Below, in pieces: positions 36,686 through 42,548 of a stretch of DNA of 64,000 bases. The notes below the pieces were generated by a model that saw nothing but the letters and a program-made list of their open reading frames with translations, was not told where the DNA came from and did not search any database. The stretch lies in the NCBI GenBank assembly GCA_017307065.1, contig JAFKGL010000012.1:62001-126000 (forward strand), written 5' to 3'. The position numbers were made by a program, and so were the translations under genes. This stretch comes from Candidatus Paracaedimonas acanthamoebae (GTDB lineage: Bacteria; Pseudomonadota; Alphaproteobacteria; Caedimonadales; Caedimonadaceae). Position 1 is the stretch's first letter. The number at the start of each line of letters is the position of its first letter.

Positions 36686-36704
36686 TAGCTTGAATGTGGG
36701 AAGA

Positions 36705-39527
36705 ATGACTCTTAATACTCTTAGTATTCGCGGCGCTCGTGAACATAATTTAAAGAATGTGGATGTTGATATCCCGCGCAACAAGCTTGTGGTGATCACA
36801 GGCTTAAGTGGGTCAGGCAAATCCTCTCTTGCTTTTGATACAATTTATGCTGAAGGCCAAAGGCGTTACGTCGAAAGTCTCTCAGCTTATGCCCGTCAAT
36901 TCTTAGAATTGATGCAAAAACCAGATGTTGATTCAATTGAAGGCTTGTCGCCGGCGATTTCAATTGAGCAAAAGACAACGTCGAAAAATCCTCGTTCTAC
37001 AGTTGGTACAGTGACGGAAGTCTATGATTATCTGCGTCTTCTTTTCGCACGCATAGGAATTCCTTACTCGCCTGCAACAGGTCTGCCTATTGAAAGCCAA
37101 ACAGTCTCACAGATGGTGGATCGGCTTATGGGGTGCCCCGAGGGAAGTCGTTGGCTTTTGTTGGCTCCCATCGTTCGAGGGCGAAAAGGGGAGTATAAAA
37201 AAGAAATTGCAGAGATGCAAAAACGAGGATTCCAAAGAATTAAAGTCGATGGAAAACTTTATGCGATTGAAGACGCTCCAGTCCTGGATAAAAAACTAAA
37301 GCACGATATTGAGATTGTTGTTGATCGTGTGGTTATTAAAGATGAAATTGCGACACGCCTTGCAGATAGTATTGAAACGGGCTTAAAGCTCGCGGAAGGG
37401 ATTCTTTTTGCTGAAAATGCCGACACGGAAGAGCGGCTGACATTTTCAGAAAAATTTGCTTGCCCCGCATCAGGTTTTACGATTGAAGCTATTGAACCGC
37501 GTCTTTTTTCTTTTAATAGTCCATTTGGGGCTTGCCCGGATTGTGATGGGTTGGGAGCTCGGATTCAGTTTGATCCTCAGTTAGTTATTCCAGATCCCTT
37601 GAAAACACTTGAACAAGGAGCGATTGTTCCGTGGGCAAATTCTTTTTTTATGTATTACCTTCAAACGTTGGAATCTGTTGTAAAAGCATTTAACGAAGAT
37701 ATTCATACATCTTTTCAACAATTAAAAGAAGAAACGCGCGACGCCATCTTATATGGGACAAAAGGAAAAGAAATTACCATTTCAATGATGGATGGAACGA
37801 GATCTTTTCAGCAAAAGAAACCCTTTGAAGGTGTTATTCCTCACTTAGAGCGACGATATCGTGAAAGTGAAAGTAACTCGCGTCGTGAAGAGCTTGAGCG
37901 TTATCAAATGAGCAGTCCTTGTGAAGTTTGTCATAGTTATCGTCTTAAGCCAGAAGCTCTTTCGGTAAAAATAAACGAAAAACATATTGGCCAAGTGACC
38001 GAGCTTTCGGTGGCTGAAGCGGTGAGGTGGTTTGAGGGGTTGGCACCGAAGCTTACCCAAAAACAGCAAGAAATAGCCTCTCGAATTTTAAAAGAAATCA
38101 ATGAGAGATTGGGATTTTTAAATAACGTTGGATTAGGTTATCTGACCTTATCACGTTCCTCGGGAACGCTATCAGGTGGAGAAAGTCAACGAATTCGGTT
38201 AGCGTCCCAAATTGGCTCTGGTTTAACGGGGGTTCTTTATGTTCTCGACGAGCCTTCGATTGGACTCCATCAGCGTGATAATGATCGTTTGCTAGAAACC
38301 TTAAGACGTCTTCGCGATTTGGAAAATACAGTCATCGTTGTTGAGCATGATGAAGATACTATTCGAGCCGCGGATTATCTTATTGATATGGGGCCTGGGG
38401 CGGGAATCCATGGGGGTGAAATTGTGTCTCAAGGAACGCCTGAGACAGTGATGACAGATCCTCAAAGCCTCACAGGAGCTTATCTTACAGGTAAAAGAAC
38501 TATCGAAGTTCCAACAAAACGGCGTCAAGGGAATGGACAAGTTTTAAAAGTTAAAGGAGCGAAAGCCAATAATCTTAAAAACCTTACAGTGGATTTTCCT
38601 TTAGGGACTCTTACGTGTGTGACAGGTGTTTCAGGAGGTGGAAAATCATCTCTTGTGATTGAAACGCTTTACAAAGCAATTGCTCGTCAATTGCATGGGG
38701 CTCGAGATCTTCCTGGCGAGCATACAGCTATTGAAGGGCTTGAGGCGATCGATAAAATTATTGATATAGATCAATCCCCTATTGGACGAACACCACGATC
38801 AAACCCAGCAACGTATATTGGGGCTTTTACGTCTATTCGAGAGTGGTTTGCAGCTTTACCGGAAGCCAAGGCTAGAGGATATCAGCCTGGACGTTTTTCT
38901 TTTAACGTCAAAGGCGGTCGCTGTGAGGCTTGTGAAGGAGACGGAGTCTTAAAAATTGAAATGCACTTTCTGCCTGATGTGTATGTTGAGTGCGATCACT
39001 GTAAAGGGAAGCGTTATAATCGAGAGACCTTAGAAGTAAAATACCGTGACAAAACGATTGCTGATATTCTTGATATGAGCGTTGAAGAAGGTCTTGAATT
39101 CTTTCAAGCAACACCGTCTGTGCGGGATAAACTTGCAACTCTTCAAAAGGTAGGATTGGGATATATCCATATTGGGCAGCGTGCCACAACACTTTCAGGA
39201 GGAGAGGCGCAAAGGATAAAATTATCAAAAGAATTGTCTAAACGGGCGACAGGTCGTACGCTTTATATCTTGGATGAGCCTACGACGGGCCTTCATTTCG
39301 AAGATGTGAATAAGTTGTTAGAGGTTCTTCATTCTCTTGTGGATCAAGGAAATACAATTATTGTAATCGAACATAATCTTGAAGTGATTAAAACCGCAGA
39401 TTGGGTAATTGATTTGGGACCAGAAGGGGGACATGAAGGCGGAAAGGTTGTTGGAAAAGGGACGCCTGAAGCGCTTGCAAAAATTCCAGAAAGTTATACA
39501 GGGAAATATCTTAAAAAATATCTTTAA
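36705..39527 (+). CDS. uvrA: UvrABC excinuclease subunit A
   Basis: Damage-recognition ATPase of nucleotide excision repair, working as a dimer with UvrB. The 940-residue protein has two ABC ATPase halves: [12 protein letters not shown] near 34 with a signature [14 protein letters not shown], and [12 protein letters not shown] near 643 with [15 protein letters not shown]. Zinc-binding cysteine clusters are visible ([18 protein letters not shown], and CEACEGDG with [14 protein letters not shown]). ATG 36705 with GGAAG just upstream is preferred over a TTG 15 bases before. It converges on the xerC relic and fsa. Confidence 0.98.
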
Positions 39528-39530
39528 CTT

Positions 39531-39830
39531 ATGTTTTTTTGGGAGCTTAGATGTTTTGATTTTTAAATGGGTAATGCCTGATAAGATAATTCATAAATGA
39601 ACGGAACGTATAGAAGACAAAGACCTTGCGATTGGAATAGTTAAAATCTTTTTTACGGCTCAATGCGTCAGATAAGCCCCTAAATCTCTGCTATAATTTG
39701 AAACAGTGTGAAGAGAAACATCCTTTTCAACGGTGAGCCAGTTGAGCCACTCTTGTAAATAAGGTTGTAGGCTAATACTGATAATTTGGCTCGGGATAAA
39801 GGCAAAGGAGCGTGTTTCTCTTTCCACCAT
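39531..39830 (-). pseudogene. xerC: Truncated, decayed xerC (N-terminal core-binding domain only)
   Basis: Reading leftward from ATG 39830, six bases after the fsa stop, gives 56 codons to a TGA at 39660. The segment LQEWLNWLTVEKDVSLHTVS followed by NYSRDLGAYL matches the start of the XerC/XerD core-binding (SAM-like) domain. In the same frame past the stop, IARSLSSIRS and, after a second TGA at 39591, SGITHLKIKTSKLPKK continue the family pattern up to the uvrA stop. A section of about 15 residues after the first stop looks deleted, and the whole catalytic domain (Arg-His-Arg-Tyr) is absent. In related bacteria an intact xerC sits beside fsa and priA, exactly this position. Confidence 0.75.
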
Positions 39831-39836
39831 TTATCT

Positions 39837-40493
39837 CTAAAGGATCGTTTGTCCTGTTGCTTTCCAGTCTTTTAAAAAGGCTTCCAGACCTTGATCTGTT
39901 AACGGGTGATTGTAAAGTTGGCGAAACGTTTTACCTGGGAGTGTAACAACATCTGCGCCAATCTTAGCAACTTCAAGAACATGGTAAGGATGACGAACAG
40001 AGGCGGCAAGAATGGCCGTTTCGATCTCAGGATAATTATCATAGATAAGCCGGATATCTCGAATTAATTGCAATCCATCCATGCTGATATCATCAAGACG
40101 ACCTAAAAAGGGGGAGATGAAGGTGGCGCCTGCCCGCGCTGCCAGAAGAGCTTGCGTTGCAGAGAAACATAAAGTAACATTCACCATGATTCCTTGAGAT
40201 GATAAAGCCTTACAGGCCTTTAAGCCGTCAAAAGTAAGAGGGACTTTGATAGTGATTTGTTCGCTAATTTGCGTAAGAACAGAAGCTTCTTGCATCATTT
40301 CAGGGTAAGTCGTGGCGGTGACTTCGGCGCTGACAGGTCCTTCAACGATGGAGCAAATTTCGGCAATAACCTTTTTAATTTCCTGCCCTGATTTAGCAAT
40401 TAAACTAGGATTTGTTGTGACACCAGAAATAAGACCAGAATCAGCGAGTTCGCGAATTTCCAGAATGTCAGCACTATCGAGGAAAAAATTCAT
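39837..40493 (-). CDS. fsa: Fructose-6-phosphate aldolase/short transaldolase
   Basis: A 218-residue class I aldolase of the small transaldolase family (FSA/TalC), forming a TIM barrel. [29 protein letters not shown], the Schiff-base lysine in [22 protein letters not shown] and [24 protein letters not shown] are all visible. Many members of this size act as true transaldolases in the pentose phosphate pathway, so the exact reaction is open. It is divergent from priA with 78 bases between, and followed by the xerC relic on the same transcript. Confidence 0.93.
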
Positions 40494-40571: not shown

Positions 40572-42548
40572 ATGATGCAAAAAGTAGGTGTTCTTCTTCC
40601 AGTTCCTTTAAGTCAGGTTTATGATTATATCGTTCCTGAAGATATGTCTCTTATTGTTGGGGATATGGTATTGGTCCCCTTTGGGGCAAGGCGCCTTTAT
40701 GGCGTTGTCTGGAGACTTTCTGAATTTTCAGAAACGTCAAAACCCCTAAAAGAAATCTGTGAGAAGTTTGACCTGCCGACCATTCCTTTAGCGAACTTGG
40801 AATTTATTGAATGGGTTGCAAATTATACATTAACACCTCTTGGGACCATGCTCAAATTAATGCTGAGTGCGCCTCAAGTTTTCAAAATCTTAAAACGGCA
40901 ATCAAAGAAAATTGATAAAATTTTGAGCCCGCATCCTGATTTTTCTTCAGTTCATTTTTCACCGGCTCAAGAGCTAACATATCAAGACCTTAAAACACGG
41001 CTTGATCAAGGATATTCAGTTTCTGTTTTAGATGGAGTCACGGGTTCAGGAAAAACAGAGATCTATCTTGAATTAATTGCTGAGGTTTTGAGAAGACAGC
41101 AACAGGCTCTCGTCTTATTGCCTGAAATTTCTCTATCTCCTCAAATGATTGAAAGATTCGAAAAAAGATTTGGGACATCCCCTTCACTTTGGCATTCGTT
41201 GTTAACCCCAGCTCAGCGTCGAGAGACGTGGAAACAGATTATCAAAGGAGAGGCAAAGGTAATTATTGGAGCCCGCTCAGCGTTATTTCTTCCTTATTCA
41301 AACTTAGGTTTAATTGTTGTGGATGAGGAACATGAGCAAACGTATAAGCAAGATGAGGGGGCTATTTATCAAGGGCGAGATATGGCTGTCGTGCGAGCAT
41401 CGCTGGATCATATTCCTGTTGTTTTAGCTTCTGCGACTCCATCTTTAGAGACGCACTATAATTGCCACCAAGGGCGTTATCATAAGGTTACGTTGGAAAG
41501 TCGATTTGGTGAGGCTTCTCTTCCTGAAATTAAAATTGTTGATTTGAAAGAATCAAAATCAAAAGAATGGATTTCAGCGCCGTTATTTGATGAAATCAAT
41601 AAGATCACGTCTTCTGGAGAGCAGGCCCTTTTATTTTTGAATAGACGAGGATATGCGCCTCTCACGTTATGCAGTGCTTGTGGAACAAAAGTTGAATGTC
41701 CTTTTTGTACGGCATGGTTAGTTGATCATAGGGTACAAGGGAGGCTTGTTTGTCATTATTGTGGGCATGCAGTTGCCCAGTTAAAAGAATGTACAAGCTG
41801 TCATGCGAAAGATAGTTTTGTAGCTTGTGGGCCAGGTGTGGAGCGTCTAGCTGAAGAAGTTGCAGGACGATTTCCTCATCTTAATTACTGTATTATTTCC
41901 AGTGATATTATTTCAAACGTACAAGAATTAGACCTTGTCTTGTCAAGGATAAAAAATAATGAAGTCTCAATAATTATTGGCACTCAAATGATTGCTAAAG
42001 GTCATCATTTTCCTCATTTAACGCTTGTTGGCGTCATTGATGCAGATTTGGGGCTGCAAGGAGGGGATCTTCGAGGGAGCGAAAGGACCTATCAATTGCT
42101 TCAACAGGTAGGTGGGAGAGCTGGACGAGAGCATAAATCTGGAAAAGTCTGGCTTCAGACTTACTATCCTGACCATCCTGTTATGCAAGCCCTTGTTACT
42201 GGAGATCGAGAACAGTTCATCAGACAAGAACTTTTTATGAGAGAAAGCAATTTAATGCCGCCTTTCAGTCGTCTTGCTGCCTTAATTCTTACAGGAATGG
42301 ATGAGGATCAAGTAAAGCAAGAAGCGCTTCGACTTCTGAGTGTTGTGCCTAAAGAGATGCATGTGGAGATTTTAGGGCCAGCACCAGCCCCCATTTATAT
42401 GATTCGTGGACGTTATCGGTGGCGCATTCTTGTGAAGAGTCCCCGTAATTATAATTTACAGAAATTTCTGAAATTATGGCTTTATTCTGTCAAGTTACCA
42501 TCTTCTATTCGTCTAAAAATTGATATCGATCCGTATAATTTTTTATAA
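40572..42548 (+). CDS. priA: Primosomal replication restart helicase PriA
   Basis: 3'-to-5' superfamily 2 helicase that reloads the replisome at collapsed forks. The 658-residue protein is somewhat shorter than the E. coli form (about 730). It has an N-terminal 3'-DNA-binding domain, GVTGSGKTEIYLEL near 155, the DEEH box in VVDEEHEQTYKQDE, and a zinc module with eight cysteines (CSACGTKVECPFC and CHYCGH with CTSCHAK) at about 367-418. GTQMIAKGHHFPHLTLVGV and QVGGRAGR follow. The start is one of two adjacent ATGs. A hairpin terminator lies 26 bases after the stop. Confidence 0.97.
   Translation: MMQKVGVLLPVPLSQVYDYIVPEDMSLIVGDMVLVPFGARRLYGVVWRLSEFSETSKPLKEICEKFDLPTIPLANLEFIEWVANYTLTPLGTMLKLMLSAPQVFKILKRQSKKIDKILSPHPDFSSVHFSPAQELTYQDLKTRLDQGYSVSVLDGVTGSGKTEIYLELIAEVLRRQQQALVLLPEISLSPQMIERFEKRFGTSPSLWHSLLTPAQRRETWKQIIKGEAKVIIGARSALFLPYSNLGLIVVDEEHEQTYKQDEGAIYQGRDMAVVRASLDHIPVVLASATPSLETHYNCHQGRYHKVTLESRFGEASLPEIKIVDLKESKSKEWISAPLFDEINKITSSGEQALLFLNRRGYAPLTLCSACGTKVECPFCTAWLVDHRVQGRLVCHYCGHAVAQLKECTSCHAKDSFVACGPGVERLAEEVAGRFPHLNYCIISSDIISNVQELDLVLSRIKNNEVSIIIGTQMIAKGHHFPHLTLVGVIDADLGLQGGDLRGSERTYQLLQQVGGRAGREHKSGKVWLQTYYPDHPVMQALVTGDREQFIRQELFMRESNLMPPFSRLAALILTGMDEDQVKQEALRLLSVVPKEMHVEILGPAPAPIYMIRGRYRWRILVKSPRNYNLQKFLKLWLYSVKLPSSIRLKIDIDPYNFL

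Follow-up and report, generated by a model that had tools for sequence, protein, structure and literature searches.

A probable xerC pseudogene at the native locus of a Caedibacter-like alphaproteobacterium with a reduced genome

Introduction

Fused chromosomes are normally separated by a pair of enzymes, XerC and XerD. Complete loss of dif and Xer has been documented in insect endosymbionts (PMC2731167). The genome described here, a 51-contig draft of 1.65 Mb assessed as 99.99% complete, resembles those of insect endosymbionts (Buchnera, Blochmannia, Wigglesworthia and others; PMC2731167) in being reduced and in losing dimer-resolution genes; those endosymbionts are without the whole dif/Xer system, whereas here only XerC appears to have been lost, recently, and XerD is intact. 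With the single-recombinase systems XerH, XerS and XerL it shares the presence of one chromosomal Xer gene, but the gene left here is a standard XerD and no cognate single-recombinase site was found in the draft. The closest counterparts of the locus are the xerC genes (TIGR02224) of Caedibacter sp. 38-128 (G001/L072) and Caedibacter sp. 37-49 (G002/L073), which occupy the same place next to fsa and encode full XerC proteins of about 320 aa with the catalytic domain, which the remnant lacks.

Results

Identity and position of the remnant

The analysed window was a 64,000-nt stretch of Candidatus Paracaedimonas acanthamoebae (contig JAFKGL010000012.1) with a GC content of 38.4%. Between uvrA and fsa, the minus strand encodes the beginning of a tyrosine recombinase, in whose frame two TGA codons occur. 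The features of the locus, in window coordinates, were as follows.

36,690–39,527 (+): uvrA, convergent neighbour, intact
39,528–39,827 (−): whole remnant, read as a xerC pseudogene from nucleotide alignment with the intact xerC of both Caedibacter genomes and a protein-level match; it runs from a GTG start codon, aligned with the start in 38-128, to the region of the ancestral stop, directly against the stop of the convergent uvrA
39,681–39,827 (−): most intact part, comprising 49 codons of the core-binding (SAM-like) domain at the N-terminus, with 39/49 residues as in XerC of 38-128
39,837–40,493 (−): fsa/transaldolase-like gene, upstream, intact, 94–95% identical in the congeners
40,572–42,548 (+): priA, divergent from fsa, intact

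The recombinase peptide EWLNWLTVEKDVSLHTVSNY, from which an earlier note on this DNA had recognised the gene, was found at its place, and a chance resemblance is ruled out by the Pfam and NCBIfam matches. With X at the stops, Pfam Phage_int_SAM_1 matched the remnant with an E value of 3.5e-6, above the curated cut-off, and a blind genome-wide search with the same model recovered the site. Among NCBIfam models, TIGR02224 (XerC) ranked first with 31.6 bits. Protein comparison with the sister-species XerC as query confirmed similarity to tyrosine recombinases in two pieces, one of 75% identity over residues 1–52 (E 4.1e-20) and one of 53% over residues 76–130, with the two TGAs inside the latter. 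Identity over residues 1–49 was 39/49 (80%) to XerC of 38-128, and 31 of 48 residues were identical to XerC of 37-49, against only 8–10 of 27 for XerD proteins; by this comparison and the NCBIfam ranking, the core-binding domain is of the XerC type. The same two results rule out a remnant of xerD, and a phage integrase remnant was likewise rejected on the XerC ranking and the identity to the sister XerC. No relatives of the remnant turned up in a search of plasmids, and an Rfam search of the window gave no match.

The place of the remnant was compared with the same locus in other genomes. An intact xerC of 321 aa lies between uvrA and fsa in 38-128 with almost no spacing, and in 37-49 fsa is followed by an intact xerC of about 320 aa. 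Moreover, xerC adjoins fsa in three further genomes (G004, G006 and G008) and in many other alphaproteobacteria, and the fsa–xerC distance is within 0.9 kb in 18 of the 24 genomes with XerC among the alphaproteobacterial genomes searched. The intact gene in both congeners and its closeness to fsa in these 18 genomes point to gene death at the native locus, as the earlier note had proposed, and since both congeners retain it, the gene died in this lineage after the split from both. As a separate observation, uvrA no longer adjoins xerC in 37-49 (L009, 2127–3654), where the locus was rearranged independently. We assign a probability of about 0.9 to the reading of the remnant as a dead xerC, still at its original locus, in a Caedibacter-like alphaproteobacterium with a reduced genome; this figure covers the pseudogene reading, and the consequence for dimer resolution considered below is less certain.

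Lesions and age of the inactivation

Alignment with the intact xerC of 38-128 and 37-49 showed that the start codon and 49 codons are kept, and that the lesions begin directly behind them.

39,678–39,683 (−): scar of a ~85-nt deletion, TTTAG joined to GGGCTTATC
39,660–39,662 (−): first in-frame TGA, within AYLTHR, Arg in relatives
39,591–39,593 (−): second TGA, in a stretch that also has small indels, among them a tandem duplication of CGTTC
39,528–39,545 (−): junction of a ~571-nt deletion, mid-gene CTCCCA joined to AAAAAACATAA of the gene end

The ~85-nt deletion accounts for some 28 codons of 38-128 and 37-49 that are absent from the remnant. Both TGA codons were located where they had been reported (within 39,654–39,668 and 39,585–39,599), whereas the protein pattern said to continue beyond them was not upheld: a 17-nt deletion, the 5-nt CGTTC duplication and other small indels leave the downstream part without one continuous frame. 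The terminal pattern described up to the uvrA stop also had to be reinterpreted, since ‘KLPKK’ there is a junction at which the middle of xerC is joined to its last codons by the ~571-nt deletion. This deletion, seen in the alignment with both congeners, took the whole catalytic domain, whose absence had been noted correctly, and set the gene end directly against the uvrA stop. Similar short runs at its two ends (CTCCCAAAAA and GCTCAAAAAA) suggest slippage of short repeats as its origin. In all, about two thirds of xerC are deleted and the remainder is interrupted; of what a functional XerC has, the R-K-H-R-H-Y catalytic domain is deleted and the open frame is broken. In a draft assembly, a normal gene that was misassembled or misread in sequencing might be suspected, but no fewer than five distinct lesions, differing in kind, lie within 300 bp, one of them of ~571 nt, and the flanking uvrA, fsa and priA are clean, which makes such an origin hardly credible.

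Over the 49 preserved codons, the remnant differs from xerC of 38-128 at 6 first, 5 second and 16 third positions. The excess at third positions implies that most of the divergence accrued under protein-level selection and that inactivation was late relative to the species split. As a measure of age, the bias in so short a fragment gives an indication and not a date; together with the intact orthologues in both congeners, it supports the description of the gene death as recent in the earlier note.

Recombinases and dimer-resolution genes in the genome

Six tyrosine recombinases with a PF00589 domain were found in the genome, one XerD and five others. XerD, encoded beside accA, is the sole intact Xer protein genome-wide; neither a second copy of XerC nor XerH was found in the 51-contig draft. 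It has 311 aa, keeps the MRVSEL, HVMRH, LLGH and IYTH motifs, and scored 305.7 bits with the NCBIfam XerD model, slightly below the strict cut-off of 329.6 and above that of the general Xer model. By its NCBIfam ranking and its place next to accA, the surviving enzyme is a standard XerD. Its dN/dS against 38-128 was 0.09 (dS was near or above 1, so that such ratios are rough), and its dN to the outgroup 37-49 (0.186) was about equal to that of the 38-128 protein (0.180), so no acceleration was seen. FtsK with its gamma domain and RecA are both intact; with RecA present, dimers should still form.

Four of the five non-Xer recombinases are integrases of about 385–410 aa of the mobile-element type. 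The fifth, intact and of 402 aa (C23:29646-30854, L226), is a plasmid-type integrase, 54–57% to its closest relatives, which are integrases on Legionella plasmids; its wider family occurs on plasmids and Tn4401-type elements. Its gene adjoins a large LuxR/TPR-like gene. We considered whether another tyrosine recombinase, such as this one, has replaced XerC. The 402-aa protein is intact and gives a weak partial match to the XerC model, but its 58.7 bits are far under the cut-off of 335 bits; these plasmid and Tn4401-type relatives, and the mobile-element type of the other four, also speak against such a replacement, which we consider very improbable.

Two other genomes of the class showed incomplete Xer sets. 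G014 (1.4 Mb, 99% complete) had no XerC- or XerD-level match and has FtsK-gamma and RecA, and G005 (89% complete) had an XerD-level match only; these are possible further Xer losses.

Search for dif

The search for dif, a 28-bp site, was run with a generic pattern over the order and then narrowed by comparison. One strongly conserved candidate dif per genome (TCGCATAATATATATTATGGAAA and variants) was obtained in six relatives, at the following positions.

Caedibacter sp. 38-128 (G001), C4:18531: candidate dif
Caedibacter sp. 37-49 (G002), C74:38641: candidate dif
G003, C43:655: candidate dif
G004, C1:216623: candidate dif
G007, C14:33210: candidate dif
G009, C149:7709: candidate dif

The pattern of the six is [A/G]TCG[C/T]ATAA(6 nt)TTATGGAAA, and its right arm agrees with the dif sites of Ehrlichia and Rickettsia listed in PMC2731167. 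In the 51-contig draft of the present genome, nothing matched it with one mismatch or fewer. In both congeners a contig ends within 1 kb of the candidate dif, so an assembly gap hiding dif here is a real possibility. The site stands ~4 kb past the gene of an RNA-binding protein in 38-128 and next to a transposase in 37-49; the regions of the present genome that match these surroundings (on C23 and C14) are rearranged, with no dif there, and the genus has no conserved gene order around dif. GC skew is positive almost throughout the window, placing the terminus probably outside it.

Five weaker matches were examined as possible dif of this genome. Those at C33:11112, C29:10219 and C15:18180 all lie inside genes. 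The site at C12:126767 is intergenic with three mismatches, and in both congeners the homology on its RNase J side stops before the site. The site at C30:10064 has two mismatches and is more like the dif-like sites by a homologous NB-ARC/TPR gene in 37-49 than like the chromosomal dif.

This last site (C30, L065, 10064–10086) stands beside a LuxR/NB-ARC/TPR gene. Two direct dif-like copies occur in 37-49 (C62, L067, at 3454 and 10934), 7.5 kb apart, with a LuxR/NB-ARC/TPR gene and a transposase between them, and the flanks of the C30 site correspond on the gene side to one copy and on the outer side to the other, like a recombination product. The segment is possibly mobilised by Xer recombination.

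These searches bear on whether a homotetramer of XerD, without XerC, still resolves dimers at an altered dif, much as the single recombinases of the XerH, XerS and XerL systems do. Such systems are known in other bacteria (PMC2731167, PMC9765430), and here XerD is intact and not accelerated, its activator FtsK-gamma is intact, and RecA still makes dimers possible. Against this, no dif with two-fold XerD arms was seen in the draft, the sole perfect match to ATAAN6TTATGGAAA (C15:18180) sits in a permease gene without the left arm, the number of matches was near that of the reversed-pattern control, and the loss of xerC seems too young for re-engineering of the system. We therefore judge resolution by XerD alone to be unlikely. 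That the lineage is in transit from XerCD to XerD only, with XerD under selection and dif changed, is likewise a doubtful prospect.

Discussion

The likeliest account of these results is that XerCD dimer resolution was recently inactivated in a host-associated lineage and XerD orphaned; the host association is presumed from its Caedibacter relatives. The ancestor shared with the two congeners had an intact gene, which deletions, indels and stops then inactivated in this lineage; the catalytic domain was probably lost through slippage of short repeats. Recombination at dif by the XerCD heterodimer could presumably not proceed normally once XerC was gone, and the lineage may have little or no capacity to resolve chromosome dimers, and tolerate that. 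XerD would then be an orphan that has not yet decayed for want of time, or one kept for a residual role. Against this account, XerD shows no sign of the relaxed selection eventually expected for an orphan, a second xerC or dif could fall in the gaps of the 51-contig draft, and the surroundings of dif vary in gene order within the genus.

A recent death of xerC looks like the kind of loss already known from other symbionts. Its value would lie in the half-way stage in the loss of dimer resolution that it presents, with XerC dead and XerD, FtsK-gamma and RecA present. As two congeners retain the whole set, the order of loss and the work of XerD without XerC may be tested by comparison; beyond that, the remnant is a pseudogene such as genome reduction commonly leaves.
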